Source: an uncultured Opitutaceae bacterium (lineage in GTDB: Bacteria > Verrucomicrobiota > Verrucomicrobiia > Opitutales > Opitutaceae). From it: a stretch of DNA of 41,477 nt. Positions 29,869 through 41,477 of the stretch are shown one piece after another. Under the pieces are notes generated by a model that worked only from the letters and a program-made list of their open reading frames with translations, was not told the origin of the DNA and searched no databases. Where the stretch lies: assembly GCA_903862935.1 (NCBI GenBank), contig CAIOZY010000006.1, positions 1-41,477 on the forward strand, read 5' to 3'. The position numbers were made by a program, and so were the translations under genes. Numbering within the stretch: position 1 is the first letter of the stretch; each line of letters starts with the position of its first letter.

Positions 29869-30501
29869 ATGTCTGTCCTCGATTTCAGCCTTTTCTCAAA
29901 GGGCGGCCCGATGATGTGGGTGCTGTTGGCGATGGGTCTGGTGGGCCTGATCATGTTCATCGAGCGCACGCTCTACTTGCACCGGGGCCAGATCCGCTCG
30001 ACGGCCTTTGTCGACGGGATCAAGAACATCCTGGCCAAGCGGCGCCTGGTCGAGGCGCTCACCGTCTGCGAGGAGACGCCGGGCCCCGTGGCCGCGGTCG
30101 TCAAGGCGGCGCTCATGCACGCCGACGACGACGCCGAGCACATGCGGTTCCACGTCCAGGAGGCGGCGGTCGTCGAGCTGCCCGCCCTCGAGCGGCGGAT
30201 CGGATCGCTCGCCGCAATCGGGCAGGCGGCCCCGCTCGTGGGCCTTCTGGGAACGGTGCTCGGCATGATCACGACCTTCCTCGCGTTCTCGCGGGGCGGG
30301 GACTACGCGACGGCGAACGCCCTTTCCGCAGGCATGTGGCAGGCCCTGTTGAGCACGGCCGGGGGCCTCATGCTGGCGATCCCGGCCCATCTCGCGCACC
30401 ATTTCCTCACCGGCCGCCTGCGCGCAATTGTCCGGGACCTGGAGTGGGCCGGAAACGAGATGATGCGCTACCTGCTCACGGAGTACCGGGCCAAGCCATG
30501 A
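29869..30501 (+). CDS. exbB: MotA/TolQ/ExbB-family proton channel
   Basis: A 210-aa inner-membrane protein with three hydrophobic helices (about 14-33, 110-133 and 147-167) and the family signature APLVGLLGTVLGMITTF (about 122-138). With ExbD it uses the proton gradient to drive a TonB-like transducer. Whether it serves Ton, Tol or motility is not provable from the chain alone; the neighbouring ExbD-like and TonB-like genes point to Ton. The ATGA overlap at 30498-30501 couples it to exbD. Confidence 0.92.
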   Translation: MSVLDFSLFSKGGPMMWVLLAMGLVGLIMFIERTLYLHRGQIRSTAFVDGIKNILAKRRLVEALTVCEETPGPVAAVVKAALMHADDDAEHMRFHVQEAAVVELPALERRIGSLAAIGQAAPLVGLLGTVLGMITTFLAFSRGGDYATANALSAGMWQALLSTAGGLMLAIPAHLAHHFLTGRLRAIVRDLEWAGNEMMRYLLTEYRAKP

Positions 30502-30944
30502 TCACGCGTCCCCTGGACCTCGCCTCGAGGCTCTCGCCGCCGCCCCGAAGCCTGGACTTTTTCTTTTTCATCAACGTGGGGTTGCTGGCTCTTTTCTTTG
30601 CGCTTTTCGGATCGCGGTTTGTCCTTGCGCCCGGCCTGGGGGTCGACTTCCGCCTGCCGCAGACCGCCGGCGCGCGGGCGGGCGCGACGGGAACGACCTG
30701 CTACATGAGCGTACTGCGCTCCGGCCAGATTCTCACCGACAACGGGCTGCTGACCATGGCCGAACTGCCCAACTGGCTCAAGGCCCGGGCCCAGAGGGAT
30801 CGCCAGCCCGTGCTTCTGGTCGGCGCGAGCGATCAGGTGCCCGTCTCCGATGTTGCCCGGATCTGCAGCATGGCTGCTGCTGCGGGCTTCATCCGCGTCC
30901 AACTGGCGGCTGAGGAGGCCGTCCCGCCGGGCGGCCGGCGGTGA
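30498..30944 (+). CDS. exbD: ExbD/TolR-family biopolymer transport protein
   Basis: A 148-aa protein with one membrane helix (about 21-40) and a periplasmic domain. The conserved TM-edge aspartate is D20 in SLDFFFF, the position expected to work with ExbB in proton flow. The C-terminal half (QPVLLVGASDQVPVSDVARI) is a typical ExbD fold. Start by ATGA overlap with exbB. The next gene begins 3 nt after the stop. Confidence 0.88.
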   Translation: MITRPLDLASRLSPPPRSLDFFFFINVGLLALFFALFGSRFVLAPGLGVDFRLPQTAGARAGATGTTCYMSVLRSGQILTDNGLLTMAELPNWLKARAQRDRQPVLLVGASDQVPVSDVARICSMAAAAGFIRVQLAAEEAVPPGGRR

Positions 30945-30947
30945 GCG

Positions 30948-31682
30948 ATGGCCTCGAGTAAGAGGGGGATCAAGCGCATCTGGGCGGTGGCCGCGGTCGC
31001 CGGTGCGGCTGCGCTCGCCTTCGGTATATCGCTCTTCCGGCCCCTCGGGGCTCCTCCCCCCCGCGCGGCGTCCCCGCCGACCCTTGCCCTGCAAATCGGG
31101 GCCCAGCCGGGTTCGCCGGCCGACCCGCTCTTCCAGGAGGACGCCCAGGCCCACGACCCGACACCGCTGTTCCTGCCCACGCAGTGGAACAGCTCCGAAA
31201 AAGAGGTCCCCCGGAGGGAACCGAGCCAGACCTTTGAGAACTTCGGGGCCAAACTTGTTTTCTCGGAAATCAATCTTGCACTGGATCTTCCATCACCTAC
31301 GGCGGTTCCGGAGCGGACCGCCGACGCCCTCGACTCCAACCCGCCCGGCCAGCCCTTCGTGGGCATTGGCCGATCGGACAGCCCGCCCCCGGTTGTCAGC
31401 TTGCGCAGCGCGTTCCTGGAGATCGTTGCAGCCGGATCGGGTCAAAGAGTCTTCTCCCAGGCGTTAATCGGTCTTGCATCGGGGGTTGCGGATTCTCCGC
31501 CGGAGGGCGGGGCCTGGCAGTTCATGGCGGCGGTCGACGCCGCGGGACTTGTGGGGGCCCTGGTGCCGACGGTTCGCTCGGGAACAACCTCGGACGGCTA
31601 TTTTCTCGACTATCTGGTGCGGACCTTTAGGGTGGGTGATCGGCTCGCCCCGGGTTTCTACCGGATATCTGTTGGGCCCTGA
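30948..31682 (+). CDS. Putative TonB-like protein (membrane-anchored, third gene of the exb operon)
   Basis: A 244-aa protein with no confident family match. It has the TonB layout: a short basic N-terminus, one membrane helix (about 11-32, WAVAAVAGAAALAFGI), a Pro-rich stretch (LGAPPPRAASPP), and a compact C-terminal domain of about 100 residues. The classic TonB C-terminal YP motif is not evident, so this is inference from topology and from its place 3 nt after exbD. It may transmit energy to an outer-membrane receptor. Downstream is about 170 bp up to the tRNA-Thr. Confidence 0.55.
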   Translation: MASSKRGIKRIWAVAAVAGAAALAFGISLFRPLGAPPPRAASPPTLALQIGAQPGSPADPLFQEDAQAHDPTPLFLPTQWNSSEKEVPRREPSQTFENFGAKLVFSEINLALDLPSPTAVPERTADALDSNPPGQPFVGIGRSDSPPPVVSLRSAFLEIVAAGSGQRVFSQALIGLASGVADSPPEGGAWQFMAAVDAAGLVGALVPTVRSGTTSDGYFLDYLVRTFRVGDRLAPGFYRISVGP

Positions 31683-31854
31683 GCGCGGGTTTAGTTCAAA
31701 ATTTGCCTTGCGTCGCAAGTTTGCTGTTGACGGGGCAATTCGCGACGTTCACTTTCTAACCTCTTTTTCGTTTTTTGACCTTAAGTTCAGCATCCGTGAG
31801 CCAGAAACCCTTGATAATCAACTGGGGTTCTTTTGGCGAGCCGGCTACTGGTCT

Positions 31855-31930
<76 letters not shown>

Positions 31931-31996
31931 GGACAGACTACCAAAAAATCCACATCACCTTCCAATCCCAACCCAACAACACGTCCCAAACCTTCC

Positions 31997-33187
31997 ATGG
32001 CTAAAGGAACATTCCAACGCACAAAACCGCACGTCAACGTCGGCACGATCGGCCACGTCGACCACGGCAAGACAACGCTGACTGCTGCGATCCTCTCGGT
32101 GCAGTCGAAGAAGGGCTTCGCGGAGATCAAGTCCTACGCGGACATCGCGAAGGGCGGCACCATCCGTGACGCCACCAAGACCGTGACGATTGCGGTGGCC
32201 CACGTGGAGTACCAGACGGCTAAGCGCCACTATGCGCACGTCGACTGTCCCGGACACGCCGACTTCGTGAAGAACATGATCACGGGCGCCGCCCAAATGG
32301 ACGGAGCGATCCTGGTTGTATCCGCCGCCGACGGCCCGATGCCCCAGACCCGTGAGCACATCCTGCTCGCCCGCCAAGTTGGCGTGCCGAAGATCGTGGT
32401 TTTCCTGAACAAGGTCGACCTGATCGACGACAAGGACCTCCTTGACCTGGTTGAGGAAGAGGTCCGCGACCTGCTCACCAAGTACCAGTTTGACGGGAAG
32501 AACGCCAAGGTTGTCCGCGGCTCTTCGACGGCCGCCCTCGAGGGCAAGCCCGAGGGGATCAAGGCGATCGACGATCTGATGGACGCCATCGACAGCGAGA
32601 TCCCGGAGCCCGTCCGCGAGGTCGACAAGCCCTTCCTGATGTCCATCGAGGACGTCTTCTCGATCACCGGCCGCGGCACCGTCGCCACAGGCCGTATCGA
32701 GCGCGGCATCGTGAAGCTGAACGAGACCGTCGAGATCGTCGGGCTGAAGGACACGAGCACGACCGTTGTCACCGGCATCGAAATGTTCCGCAAGCTCCTC
32801 GACGAGGGTCGGGCGGGCGACAATGTCGGCGTTCTGCTGCGCGGCGTTGAGAAGGACGGCATCGAGCGCGGCCAGGTCCTGGCGGCCCCGAAGTCGATCA
32901 CTCCCCACAAGAAGGCCAAGGCTGAGATCTACGTCCTGTCCAAGGACGAGGGCGGCCGTCACACCCCCTTCTTCAACGGCTATCGTCCGCAGTTCTACTT
33001 CCGGACGACGGACGTCACCGGTATCGTCAACCTGCCCAAGGGCGTCGAGATGATCATGCCCGGCGACAACATCAATATCGACATCGACCTGATCGTCCCG
33101 ATCGCAATGGAGAAGACTCAGCGCTTTGCCATCCGCGAAGGCGGTCGCACCATTGGTGCGGGCCGCATCACGGACATCACCGAGTAA
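31997..33187 (+). CDS. tuf: Elongation factor Tu
   Basis: A 396-aa GTPase that brings aminoacyl-tRNA to the ribosome. G1 loop GHVDHGKT at 19-26; then [12 protein letters not shown] and NKVDLID; the C-terminal barrel ends [11 protein letters not shown]. The start [20 protein letters not shown] at 31997 is the normal EF-Tu N-terminus; the in-frame extension upstream crosses the tRNA and is not coding. The leader just before the ATG (CCCAAACCTTCC) is C/A-rich without a Shine-Dalgarno. Sits between tRNA-Thr and tRNA-Trp. Confidence 0.99.
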
Positions 33188-33216
33188 GTGCCTCTGTTCC
33201 AACTGCCAATACGACT

Positions 33217-33247
33217 CGCCGAGGTCCTCCCCCGCGGAGCCTCGGCG
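33217..33247 (+). terminator. Hairpin after tuf (possible terminator or processing signal)
   Basis: CGCCGAGG (33217-33224) pairs with CCTCGGCG (33240-33247), with a further TCC/GGA pairing inside the loop. No T-tract follows (next bases CCGTCGTCTAAAA), so intrinsic termination is uncertain. It could be a structured spacer that marks the tuf/tRNA-Trp boundary for RNase cleavage. Confidence 0.35.
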
Positions 33248-33270
33248 CCGTCGTCTAAAATCCACGCCAC

Positions 33271-33346
33271 AGGGGTGTAGCTCAATTGGTAGAGTAGCGG
33301 TCTCCAAAACCGTCGGTTGGGGGTTCGAGTCCCTCCGCCCCTGCCA
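33271..33346 (+). tRNA. tRNA-Trp (anticodon CCA)
   Basis: A 76-nt cloverleaf: acceptor AGGGGTG/CGCCCCT (one G-T pair), D-arm TAGCTCAATTGGTAGAGTA, anticodon stem GCGGT/ACCGT around CTCCAAA (anticodon CCA), T-loop GGTTCGAGTCC, and encoded CCA at 33344-33346. Located between tuf and secE, the usual place in many bacteria. Confidence 0.97.
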
Positions 33347-33358
33347 CTCTCACACGCC

Positions 33359-33562
33359 ATGTCCAATCCTTTCCGCAGCACACGCATCTTCTTCGGCGAA
33401 ATGACCGCCGAACTGAAGAAGGCCAGCTGGCCGACCCCCTCCGAACTGAGGGACTCCACCGTCGTCGTCATCGTGGCGTCGATCATCCTGGGGTTGTTCA
33501 CCGGAATCAGCGACTTCTCGCTCTACCAAGTCGTGGACCTGTTCACGTCCTGGGTCAGTTAA
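33359..33562 (+). CDS. secE: Preprotein translocase subunit SecE
   Basis: A 67-aa single-span protein of the SecYEG channel. The cytoplasmic amphipathic part (FFGEMTAELKKASWPTPSEL, with the conserved KKxxWP) precedes a membrane helix at about 37-56 (VVVIVASIILGLFTGI). Short SecE lacking the extra E. coli helices. The start is 13 bases after the tRNA-Trp CCA; an in-frame upstream extension would overlap the tRNA and is rejected. nusG follows after 9 nt. Confidence 0.95.
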   Translation: MSNPFRSTRIFFGEMTAELKKASWPTPSELRDSTVVVIVASIILGLFTGISDFSLYQVVDLFTSWVS

Positions 33563-33571
33563 AACGAACCC

Positions 33572-34153
33572 ATGTCCACCGCTCCTACCGCCGCTCCTGC
33601 GGGCGCCCAGTGGTTCGCCCTGCACACCCTCTCCGGCCAGGAGAACAAGGTCAAAATCTACATCGAGCGATTCAAGACCGCGGAGGAGCTCGACGACCAG
33701 ATCTTCGAGGTGCTCCTTCCGACGGAGGTTGTTTCCGAGGTCAAGAACGGCAAGAAGTCGACCAAGGTCCGCAAGCTCTACCCGGGCTACGTCTTCATCC
33801 AGATGCGCCTGTTCGGCGAGGACGGCAAACTCATCAACAAGCCCTGGTACTTCGTGAAGGAAGTGGCCGGCGTCATCGGGTTTGTAGGCGGCGAGCACCC
33901 CGCGGCGCTCCGCCAGAGCGAGATCGACGAGATCCGGGCCAGGATCGAGGCGGCCAACGGCAAGGAAGTGCCGAAGGTGCAATACGCCGTGGGCGAGGAG
34001 GTCAAGATCAACGACGGGCCCTTCGCGAACCTCAACGGGCGCATCGACGAGATCGACCCCGATCGCGGAAAGCTCCGCGTGTCGGTTTCGATCTTCGGCC
34101 GGTTCACGCCGGTGGAACTTGAATACTGGCAGGTGCAGCGCCTCGCCGAGTGA
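33572..34153 (+). CDS. nusG: Transcription termination/antitermination protein NusG
   Basis: A 193-aa NusG. NGN domain from about residue 14 (WFALHTLSGQENKVKIYIER) with the KLYPGYVFIQM block, and a C-terminal KOW domain (about 140-193: GEEVKINDGPFANLNGRIDE). Binds RNA polymerase and couples it to Rho or ribosomes. A somewhat long acidic/basic linker (about 118-135) separates the domains. It forms the secE-nusG-rplK order found in most bacteria. Confidence 0.97.
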   Translation: MSTAPTAAPAGAQWFALHTLSGQENKVKIYIERFKTAEELDDQIFEVLLPTEVVSEVKNGKKSTKVRKLYPGYVFIQMRLFGEDGKLINKPWYFVKEVAGVIGFVGGEHPAALRQSEIDEIRARIEAANGKEVPKVQYAVGEEVKINDGPFANLNGRIDEIDPDRGKLRVSVSIFGRFTPVELEYWQVQRLAE

Positions 34154-34176
34154 CAACCCAACAACCCCTTTAATTC

Positions 34177-34602
34177 ATGGCCAAGAAAATCCAAGGTTAC
34201 ATCCGCCTCCAACTCCCCGCTGGGGCAGCCAATCCGGCGCCGCCGGTCGGCCCCGCGCTCGGCGCGCAAGGCGTCAACATCATGGCGTTCTGCAAGGAGT
34301 TCAACGCTAAGACCAAGGATCAGAACGGCATGATCCTTCCGGTGGTGATCACGGTTTACGCGGACAAGAGCTTCTCGTTCATCCTGAAGTCGCCGCCCGC
34401 CTCGGTGCTGCTCAAGAAGGCAGCTAATATCGCCAGCGGCTCGGCCAAGCCCAACCAGGACAAGGTCGGCAAGGTTACCCGCAAGCAGCTGCTCGAGATC
34501 GTCAAGCTCAAGCAGAAGGACCTCAACTGCAAGGACGACGAGGCGGGCATCCGCATCATCGCCGGCACCGCTCGCAACATGGGCATCGATGTTGTCGACT
34601 GA
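34177..34602 (+). CDS. rplK: 50S ribosomal protein L11
   Basis: A 141-aa protein of the ribosomal GTPase centre that binds 23S rRNA helices 43/44. Landmarks: [30 protein letters not shown] with the proline-rich switch, and [17 protein letters not shown]. Preceded by an A/C-rich leader (CAACCCAACAACCCC) without a Shine-Dalgarno. A gap of 82 nt follows before rplA, where a leader for L1 autoregulation could lie (TCCCGCGGGA palindrome at 34630-34639). Confidence 0.98.
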
Positions 34603-34684
34603 GTTTTCTGACTCGTTAACGAAACCACATCCCGCGGGAGCCTGACGGCGTAGTCCGGGGCGTTCGCACCGCAAGGAGACCAAA

Positions 34685-35377
34685 ATGGAAAAACATAGCA
34701 AACGGTATCGCGCCGCCGTGAAGGCAGCCGATCTCACTAAGGAGTATCCCCTGAAGGAGGCCGTGGACGTGCTCGTCCGCTTCCCGAAGGCCAAGTTCGA
34801 CGAGACCGTCGAGCTCTCGTTCAGCCTGGGGGTCGACCCGACCGCCGGCGAGCAGATGGTGCGCGGAACGACCCCGCTGCCGAACGGCTCGGGCAAGAAA
34901 ATCCGCGTGCTGGTCTTCACCGACAACCCGGATGCGGCGATAGCCGCCGGTGCCGACCACGCCGGCCTTCAGGACATCATGGCCAAGATCAACGAGGGCT
35001 GGCTCGACTTCGACGTCGCCATCGCGACCACGGAGGCCATGAAGACCGTGCGCACGATCGCCCGGGTGCTCGGCCCGAAGGGGCTGATGCCCAACCCGAA
35101 GAGCGGCACCGTCACCGACGACATCGCCGCCGGGATCAAGGCCGTCAAGGCCGGCCGCGTCGAGTTCAAGATGGACAAGACGGGCAACATTGGCGTCGGC
35201 GTCGGCAAACGTTCCTTCACCCCGGCCCAGATCGTCGAGAACGCCCTGGCCGTGGTCGACGCCGTCGGCAAGGCCAAGCCCGCCCACTTCAAGGGCCACT
35301 ACATCAAGTCCGTCGCCATTTCCTCGTCGATGAGCCCCGCTGTCCGCGTGGCATCCAGCGAATTCAGCAAGTACTAA
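34685..35377 (+). CDS. rplA: 50S ribosomal protein L1
   Basis: A 230-aa protein of the L1 stalk, needed for tRNA exit. Landmarks: GTTPLPNGSGKKIRVLVF and RVLGPKGLMPNPKSGTV, then GNIGVGVGKRSF. Clear ribosome-binding site (CAAGGAG) in front of ATG 34685. In other bacteria L1 binds its own mRNA leader and represses the operon; the 82-nt gap upstream contains short inverted repeats but I did not find a convincing L1 site. Confidence 0.98.
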   Translation: MEKHSKRYRAAVKAADLTKEYPLKEAVDVLVRFPKAKFDETVELSFSLGVDPTAGEQMVRGTTPLPNGSGKKIRVLVFTDNPDAAIAAGADHAGLQDIMAKINEGWLDFDVAIATTEAMKTVRTIARVLGPKGLMPNPKSGTVTDDIAAGIKAVKAGRVEFKMDKTGNIGVGVGKRSFTPAQIVENALAVVDAVGKAKPAHFKGHYIKSVAISSSMSPAVRVASSEFSKY

Positions 35378-35392
35378 GCGGAGGCCCGACCC

Positions 35393-35908
35393 ATGAGAGC
35401 CGAAAAACAATACCTTATTGCCGAGGTCGAGACCCACCTCAAGAAGTCCGACTACGTGATCCTCGCCAACTTCAACGGGGCGAGCGTCGCCGACCTGGCC
35501 GAGCTGCGCAAGCGGCTGGCCGTCGAGAAGGCGGAGTTCCACGTCGTCAAGAACAGCTCGCTTCGCGTCGCCGCGAAGGCCCTTGGCCTGCCCTCGATCG
35601 AGGAGTGCCTCACCGGGCCGACTGCCCTCATCGTGGGCGGCCGCAACTCCCCCGGAGTCGCGAAGGTCCTCAAGCAGTTCTTCAAGGAGAAGCAGAAGAT
35701 CGCGGTTAAGGCCGGTATCCTCAGCCAGAAGCTGATCACCGCCAAACAGATCGAGCAGCTGGCGGAGATGCCCTCGCTCGAGACGCTGCGCGCCCAGTTC
35801 CTGGGTCTGCTCAACCAGCCCGCGAGCTCCTTCGTTCGCGTCATCAACGCGGTGCCCCAGGCCGCACTCAACGTCCTCCAGGCGAAGGTCCGCGCGGCGG
35901 GCGCCTGA
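35393..35908 (+). CDS. rplJ: 50S ribosomal protein L10
   Basis: A 171-aa protein that anchors L7/L12 dimers at the stalk base. N-terminal domain with VILANFNGASVADLAELRKR and LTGPTALIVGG; C-terminal helix for L12 binding. Good Shine-Dalgarno (GGAGG) before the start. It is 15 nt after rplA. The next gene rplL starts only after a 115-nt gap that carries a folded element. Confidence 0.97.
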   Translation: MRAEKQYLIAEVETHLKKSDYVILANFNGASVADLAELRKRLAVEKAEFHVVKNSSLRVAAKALGLPSIEECLTGPTALIVGGRNSPGVAKVLKQFFKEKQKIAVKAGILSQKLITAKQIEQLAEMPSLETLRAQFLGLLNQPASSFVRVINAVPQAALNVLQAKVRAAGA

Positions 35909-35955
35909 TTCGAACCAAAATTTTCTTTTATCAGAATAGACAACCACTAAACGCA

Positions 35956-36009
35956 GCGGGCTAGGGGATACGTCCCTTAAACACGCCCCCGACGGGGCCG
36001 CTAGCCAGC
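35956..36009 (+). promoter_or_regulatory. Structured RNA element ahead of rplL (three-way-junction-like)
   Basis: Outer stem GGCTAG (35959-35964) pairs with CTAGCC (36001-36006), extended by GC/GC across a G-A mismatch (35956-35957 with 36008-36009). Inside are a GGGA-TACG-TCCC hairpin (35965-35976, a UNCG-type tetraloop) and GCCCC-CGAC-GGGGC (35985-35998). A TTAAACAC linker separates them. The rplL Shine-Dalgarno (GCAGGAG) begins two bases after the structure and the ATG is at 36024. Likely a regulatory leader or processing site controlling L7/L12 output; function inferred only from position and pairing. Confidence 0.55.
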
Positions 36010-36023
36010 CGCAGGAGACAACC

Positions 36024-36407
36024 ATGAGCAACATCACCAAAGAACAAGTTATCGAGTGGCTTTCCAGCCAGTCGGTCCTCGAGATCGCCGGTCTGGTCAA
36101 GGACCTCGAAACCAAGTGGGGCGTTTCCGCCGCCGCACCGGTAGCCGCCGCAGCAGCCCCCGCTGCTGCCGCCGCCGCCGCTCCCGCCGAGGAGAAGACC
36201 GAGTTCACCGTCGTCCTCCTCGAGGCTGGCGCGAACAAGATTGGCGCGATCAAGGAGGTCCGGGCCATCACCGGTCTCGGACTCAAGGAGGCGAAGGACC
36301 TCGTCGAGGGAGCGCCCAAGCCCGTTAAGGAAGGCGTTTCGAAGCAGGAGGCCGAAGAGATCAAGAAGAAGCTCGAGGCCGCCGGCGCGAAGGTCGAACT
36401 CAAGTAA
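36024..36407 (+). CDS. rplL: 50S ribosomal protein L7/L12
   Basis: A 127-aa stalk protein. N-terminal dimerisation helices (about 1-35), an unusually alanine-rich hinge (about 38-58, mostly Ala with some Pro), and a C-terminal factor-binding domain with [20 protein letters not shown] and [22 protein letters not shown]. Preceded by the folded element at 35956-36009 and followed by a strong terminator-like hairpin before rpoB, so its level can be set apart from both neighbours. Confidence 0.97.
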
Positions 36408-36451
36408 GCACTTATTGGGCAAAAAATTGTCCACAGTCTTGCACCAAGCGA

Positions 36452-36492
36452 GACCGGCCGGGGCATCCCCTGGCCGGTCCTTTGCCTTTTTT
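36452..36492 (+). terminator. Intrinsic terminator/attenuator between rplL and rpoB
   Basis: GACCGGCC (36452-36459) pairs perfectly with GGCCGGTC (36472-36479), and the interior GGGG-CAT-CCCC (36460-36470) extends the stem past one unpaired T. A T-rich tail (CTTTGCCTTTTTTACC) follows. It is the clearest rho-independent signal in the window. By analogy with the E. coli rplL-rpoB attenuator, it probably lets only part of the ribosomal-protein transcripts continue into rpoBC. Confidence 0.82.
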
Positions 36493-36579
36493 ACCATTGT
36501 AACTAGCCTTGCATTGCGCGGCGCTCTCCTCAGGGCGGCGCGAGGCTGTTTGTTGACCTAATCCGAACCGGAATTTCCC

Positions 36580-41477
<4,898 letters not shown>

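Follow-up and report, generated by a model that had tools for sequence, protein, structure and literature searches.

The spacer between rplJ and rplL in an uncultured Opitutaceae bacterium encodes a compact folded RNA directly ahead of rplL, and its conservation and covariation among relatives confirm that this folded RNA is real. From its likeness to known sites we favour, with slightly better than even confidence, the reading that it is a relocated three-way-junction variant of the feedback site of L10(L12)4, and that it would repress the translation of rplL. The window, i.e., the whole stretch of DNA that was analysed, is 41,477 nucleotides long (contig CAIOZY010000006.1 of assembly GCA_903862935.1), and rplJ, rplL and the parts of the element described below lie on its + strand.

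Genomic setting

The open reading frames (ORFs) around the element, which we take from protein recognition to be tuf, secE, nusG, rplK, rplA, rplJ, rplL, rpoB and the start of rpoC, follow one another in this order, and the nearest named relatives of the RplL protein of the window, located by tblastn, belong to Opitutales-type Verrucomicrobiota MAGs, e.g., Lacunisphaera and Candidatus Didemnitutus. The ORF of rplJ (35393–35908), encoding ribosomal protein L10, starts 15 nt after the end of rplA, and that of rplL (36024–36407), encoding ribosomal protein L7/L12, has homologs by tblastn and is the proposed target. The element sits in the 115 nt spacer that separates the two (35909–36023), together with the Shine–Dalgarno sequence of rplL, read from the sequence as AGGAG (36013–36017) ahead of the AUG at 36024. 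The element is presumably co-transcribed with the rplJ and rplL genes.

Of 115 fetched family loci, 113 have both rplA and rplJ, one genome contributing two. The gap between these genes measures 6–27 nt with a median of 14, which leaves no room for a leader there in the family. Other classes of the phylum, in which the element was not seen, have short gaps as well, and a short gap alone therefore does not imply that a leader has been replaced. A mobile repeat was considered and ruled out, because the spacer is present in one copy in its own genome and the covariance model described below matches once in each of 29 matching genomes.

Two further hairpins were noted in the neighbourhood. In the rplL–rpoB spacer, a GC-rich hairpin of 12 pairs with a run rich in T after it (36452–36479) is terminator- or attenuator-like, the scan having given two such sites against 2.4 in shuffled sequence. 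In many relatives (L002, L003, L116, L122, L179 and others), an extra hairpin of the CCGGCGCAAGCCGG type lies between the rplJ stop codon and the element; none was seen in the window.

Anatomy of the element

The core of the element is a three-way junction at 35959–36006, which is present in the minimum-energy fold of 35930–36040. Read 5′ to 3′, it consists of an imperfect lower stem P0, a small asymmetric loop, the six-pair stem P1, the hairpin P2 stacked directly upon it, the junction strand J2/3, the hairpin P3, a single G or A, and the returning strands of P1 and P0, which are followed by the Shine–Dalgarno sequence. The 5′ strand of P0 (GCAGCG with mismatches, 35953–35958) forms 2 + 2 pairs in the fold and was assessed over relatives in a lower-stem test; its 3′ strand (AGCCGC, 36007–36012) is placed by sequence, fold and the same test, with the Shine–Dalgarno sequence immediately 3′. 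The two strands of P1, GGCUAG (35959–35964) and CUAGCC (36001–36006), are supported by the fold, the covariance model and covariation, the former also by the tree analysis. P2 (GGGA-UACG-UCCC, 35965–35976) is paired in 100% of alignment cells and shows no pair-breaking change on the tree; its loop is UACG in 69 of 98 aligned rows and varies in the remainder. P3 (GCCCC-CGAC-GGGGC, 35985–35998) varies in sequence and shows strong covariation.

The unpaired strands were delimited from the aligned rows. J2/3 reads UUAAAC (35977–35982), and its first four letters are UUAA in 96 and UCAA in 2 of the 98 rows, a count to be read with the knowledge that the parser choosing the model rows required U[UC]AAA, a pattern found in 126 of 127 spacers. 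J3/1 (35999–36000) is a C and then a G, and the last base before the returning strand of P1 is G in 82 rows and A in 16. In ten family members (L141, L146, L149, L154, L160, L165, L181, L183, L188 and L192), P3 has GA or GC as one flank and GAA or AAA as its opposite, replacing the usual G–C pair. Six of these ten have GA on both flanks, which could form tandem G·A pairs, and in nine of them none of AGGA, GGAG and GAGG precedes rplL.

The distance from P1 to the rplL start has a median of 17 nt and a range of 10–23 over the 98 rows (a few starts were extrapolated from tblastn), and in 72 of these rows the stretch from the element to the start contains AGGA, GGAG or GAGG. The lower stem P0 reaches the ribosome-binding site in most relatives. 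In the predicted fold of the window, the ribosome-binding site itself falls beyond the element, and a 2-pair hairpin is all that touches it. The folding energy is only mildly unusual (z −1.74, with 11 of 200 shuffles folding as well) and so is weak evidence, and the reality of the fold rests on conservation instead.

The first-pass annotation had offered an RNase III-type processing site as one explanation, in which RNase III or another endonuclease would part the rplJ from the rplL mRNA. A hairpin-rich spacer between two cistrons of differing required yields would suit such a site, but P1 and P2 stacked together amount to only ~10 bp with a short loop, falling short of a long double-stranded stem, and the strongest conservation lies in unpaired letters, which fits recognition by a ligand better than cleavage; we regard processing as very improbable.

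Conservation and covariation

Relatives were located via RplL, and their rplJ–rplL spacers were then extracted. A covariance model, R1, was built from 43 cores (alignment A1, comprising 43 of 55 selected cores) and matched all 113 family loci inspected, one per genome (the window and 86 others, then 26), the count leaving out one locus with a cut gene (L087) and one from the same genome as another (L091, shared with L088). These 113 loci are not a random draw, as they include 80 picked down a list with matches in 169 of 200 genomes; the cores of 41 are identical to a row of the model, and those of 72 are not. At E ≤ 1, R1 matched none of 69 control loci, i.e., 27 from other classes of the phylum, 39 from other bacteria and three 23S loci. 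The first-pass annotation had described an outer six-pair stem enclosing a UACG-capped hairpin and a GC hairpin, and this architecture was found at its place in the window as P1, P2 and P3, and at the inspected family loci by means of R1.

Covariation was followed in a second alignment, A2, of 98 rows, in which a genome or two is repeated (L002, L004, L005 and others share contigs with other loci) and identical rows were counted once. Standard pairs occupy 92.1% of the pair cells versus 76.5% after shuffling (97 distinct rows), in an alignment that was fitted to the structure and is hence biased towards it. Fourteen of the 16 pairs change on both sides, none of 500 shuffles reaches the observed values, and when the structure is slid along the alignment, pairing drops to 34–52%. 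The absence of covariation, or the loss of the stems in close relatives, had been put forward at the outset as what would speak against the element; the 14 pairs that change on both sides, and the match of R1 at every one of the inspected family loci, leave it standing.

Since related sequences inflate covariation counts, the changes were mapped on a tree of RplJ (96 of the 98 rows), which gave 96 pair-keeping double changes, 61 single changes and 60 breaks. Pair-keeping double changes numbered 2–32 in controls with slid partners and on average 13.7, at most 41, in controls with re-paired columns. The 60 pair-breaking changes are not clearly fewer than in the same controls (47–87 slid; mean 78 and minimum 45 re-paired), so that the excess of covariation lies in the double changes and not in rarer breaks. 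The lower stem P0, which lies outside the structure fit, gave a mean score of 4.58 versus 1.95 with shuffled partners (sd 0.21, maximum 2.77; 90 distinct flank pairs); the P0 of the window itself is imperfect and scored 0 in this test.

Conservation of this kind bears on the likeliest of the rival explanations, i.e., that the element is a device that binds no ligand and sets the translation of rplL or the stability of its mRNA by exposing the start, shielding against nucleases or uncoupling rplL from rplJ, resulting in an excess of L12 over L10. Its position next to the ribosome-binding site, which stays outside the element, would be in keeping with this. A near-invariant unpaired UUAA and a conserved junction nevertheless exceed what a passive stem would need, and the likeness to L10 leaders would have to be a coincidence, so that we consider a device of this sort unlikely.

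Distribution among the Verrucomicrobiota

A whole-genome scan with R1 under strict filters (31 candidates scored per genome) found matches in 29 of 194 genomes of the phylum, each matching once, all belonging to the order of the window, and every one of the 29 lying no more than 30 nt upstream of the rplL match of the same genome. Within the family, 18 of 19 genomes matched, and the sole exception (G027) is also without a detectable rplL. Among the 15 genomes from other families of this order, 11 matched, in families f2, f3 and f4; the other four have related spacer forms by reading and folding, one of them (f6) being found by R1 as well (E 5.8e-5).

This distribution makes it hard to see the element as a switch for a small molecule or some other protein unrelated to the ribosomal stalk. 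A compact conserved junction would be a reasonable receptor for such a ligand; the confinement of all 29 matches to the position ahead of rplL, one per genome, and the likeness that the element bears to L10 leaders and the stalk site speak against it, and of all the explanations considered we give this one the least credence.

Reading of the spacers extended the related forms to f5 and f6 of the same order and to further families of the class (f7, 4 of 4 loci; f8, 2 of 3; f9, 2; f11, 2; f12, 1; f13, 1), the assignment of one locus (L016) to f9 being a guess. No evident element was seen by the same reading in the two genomes of the same-class family f10 or in one f8 genome. When R1 was applied without filters to 27 loci of the same order or class, 13 gave correctly placed matches, the weakest being f6 (E 5.8e-5), L010 (0.013) and L278 (0.026), and the support of R1 beyond f1–f4 is limited to these three; five chance matches had E values of 1.4–9.4. 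The other 14 loci were missed (L227, L229–L236, L016, L269, L274, L275 and L276), and for all of them except L274 the element is based on reading and folding. The three-way junction is present in the minimum-energy fold of 19 of 21 representatives, the two others being f5 members without P3, and the pairs of L229, L231, L233 and L235 differ in detail from R1. J2/3 departs from UUAA in f8, where it reads AGAAUU, and in one genus of f7, where it reads UGAAAU. Among 27 loci of other classes, R1 matched none and spacer reading, from which L256 and L263 were left out, revealed no element; as R1 misses most families of the same class too, absence from the other classes is weakly tested.

Two observations were made along the way. 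In f5 (L227 and L230, from two genomes), P3 is gone, and the plain helix–hairpin–UUAA–helix that is left is, by eye, much like the core of a classical L10 leader. One record titled Akkermansia muciniphila (L006) has an RplL and an element of the Opitutales type and is probably misnamed or a mixed bin.

Proposed mode of action

The element is a conserved and covarying RNA within a cluster of ribosomal-protein genes, in an untranslated stretch before one of them, as is generally expected of a ribosomal-protein leader. The suggestion of the first-pass annotation that it could regulate the synthesis of L12 gains from this, as a covarying RNA that adjoins the rplL start is well placed to do so. In the proposed mechanism, the element would be a cis-acting RNA in the rplJ–rplL part of the transcript, acting in the manner of an L10 leader. 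When L10(L12)4 is in excess over free 23S rRNA, it would bind the three-way junction (P0–P1–P2–UUAA–P3), which would mimic its site in 23S rRNA, and the bound complex would cover the rplL ribosome-binding site, leading to lower translation of L12. The feedback site would then be internal to the operon rather than ahead of rplJ, and would adjoin the gene for L12, of which each L10 requires several copies.

The fold, its conservation, its place beside the rplL start, the order of parts in common with L10 leaders and the short rplA–rplJ gap are observed; that L10(L12)4 is the ligand, that control acts on translation and that it is repressive is what we infer from them. The window has no run of U after the element, which ends at the ribosome-binding site, and attenuation is therefore not indicated. 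When the rivals to feedback by L10(L12)4 are ranked, the passive device affecting translation or stability comes first, L11 as the ligand (see below) second, and RNase III processing or some other ligand last.

Novelty and significance

The element appears to be new within the sources covered. A scan of positions 30000–41477 of the window with Rfam 15 returned two tRNAs and one chance match, with nothing on the element. Nor was it found in literature searches or by term in the portions consulted of PMC7247131, PMC2864571, PMC4538822 and PMC10931766. The 20 ribosomal-protein leader candidates of PMC7247131 are of the same kind, i.e., feedback RNAs of ribosomal proteins, but the terms L10, uL10, bL12, L12 and Verruco- are absent from its main text.

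A large bacterial group seems to keep the core of an L10 leader, placed at rplL instead. L12 would then be the partner under regulation, and the element would offer a handle on how the unusual ratio of L12 to L10 is set. For the annotation of Opitutales genomes, it provides a new RNA family with a working covariance model.

Comparison with the stalk site of 23S rRNA

What we take to be the stalk site of 23S rRNA (helices 42–44) was compared in three genomes of the same class (G274, G339 and G304), all of which have UUUAAA between two hairpins, so that P3 has a counterpart there. The element and the 23S stalk base are alike in having three helices, the last two of them separated by UUAAA, whereas the hairpins of the element are much shorter and their loops are not conserved. 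R1 matches none of the three 23S loci supplied as controls, and the exact 23S pattern has no match in the genome of the window and 18 relatives. With one mismatch allowed, it was found in 4 of 11 chosen genomes, three of the matches looking like 23S and none being in the family of the window.

Ribosomal protein L11 binds a three-way junction of 23S rRNA with UUAAA between two hairpins, and the 23S loops matching P2 and P3 make tertiary contacts that L11 recognises. L11, the product of rplK, might accordingly replace L10(L12)4 as the ligand and serve as the feedback protein for rplL, a possibility to which the 23S likeness at the junction, the counterparts of both hairpins and the rplK ORF upstream in the same gene cluster all lend something. 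The loops of P2 and P3 vary here, however, P2 is very short, and the element is found at rplL and not at rplK, which together render L11 quite improbable as the ligand.

To return to L10(L12)4, a bolder version of the proposal, to which we give tentative and distinctly lesser credence, is that a class-wide RNA may mimic all three helices of the 23S rRNA stalk base and feed back on L12 alone, having arisen from an L10 leader through relocation, loss of the kink-turn and acquisition of the third rRNA helix. If so, these bacteria would tune the number of L12 copies per L10 by detecting finished stalk complexes where rplL starts.

Comparison with L10 leaders

L10 leaders are feedback RNAs located ahead of rplJ. 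The Rfam consensus RF00557 runs P1, P2, CUUAAuu and the returning strand of P1, the hairpin closing with a C, and the element follows this order too, with P1, a directly stacked P2, an unpaired UUAA at once thereafter and the closure of P1, and with an outer stem below P1. The unpaired UUAA is the most informative of these parts. It differs from RF00557 in lying between rplJ and rplL rather than ahead of rplJ, in having the extra helix P3 in most Verrucomicrobiota elements, and in having no terminator after it in the window. A hairpin at the place of P3 is seemingly present, by eye, in two L10 leaders of other bacteria (L026 and L052).

The model RF00557 gave no match at E ≤ 1 in positions 30000–41477 of the window and none above its cut-off in the 194 genomes of the phylum; it finds only 4 of 14 control genomes, and its absence from the phylum is thus weak evidence. 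A single weak match in the phylum (G231) adjoins aspS and was rejected. Conversely, R1 matches no L10-leader locus among its 69 controls.

A looser descriptor of helix–hairpin–UUAA–helix was not discriminating (2.56 versus 1.84 hits per kb), and a strict form, set after the looser one had failed, was run with all 256 four-letter words in the place of UUAA. TTAA ranked highest in the Verrucomicrobiota spacers (81 of 127), as expected because they had furnished the descriptor, and independently also in the stretch of 320 nt preceding rplJ in other bacteria (16 of 57 loci, the next word reaching 9), where its density was 0.88 per kb versus 0.018 elsewhere. An L10-leader-like GAC or GAU flank was seen by eye in 14 of these 16 loci. 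Two of the 16 (L032 and L041) are unlike L10 leaders in appearance, and 11 are titled as alphaproteobacteria and therefore not independent.

One other Rfam family, RF02858 (Arrc08, an sRNA of Actinobacillus), was compared. Its consensus holds an L10-leader-like core with CUUAAU; it differs in being annotated as an sRNA, and it gave no match to the window at E ≤ 1. RF02858 also matches weakly, far below its cut-off, ahead of rplJ in two loci (L035 and L079) where an L10 leader is expected, and judging by its consensus this "sRNA" may be an rplJL leader.

The clearest difference from L10 leaders concerns the kink-turn. According to PMC4538822, L10(L12)4 requires both a kink-turn and a UAA left unpaired, and PMC10931766 likewise reports that it reads these. 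The letters of the kink-turn flank P1, with GAC or GAU 5′ of the stem and GA 3′ of it. Ten of the 11 aligned L10 leaders have both parts (a pattern containing GAC had served to select 10 of the 11), versus 2 of 85 distinct flank pairs here, or 7 of 85 with a wider window; this is a judgement by letters, and a kink may form without them. The alignment of L10 leaders (L038 and 10 of 12 found) aligned poorly in the lengths of P2.

With no match to RF00557, no match of R1 to L10 leaders and the kink-turn letters nearly absent, the element is best described as L10-leader-like and not as a member of that family. The first-pass annotation had set the element apart from classical L10 leaders, which lie ahead of rplJ, and had not recognised a structured element between rplJ and rplL. 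The position is borne out; the implied lack of kinship with L10 leaders is probably wrong, given the RF00557 order of parts and the UUAAA common with the 23S stalk site. As the kink-turn is regarded as central to recognition, its apparent lack here offers a natural test of the UUAA and junction versus the kink-turn as the target of L10(L12)4.
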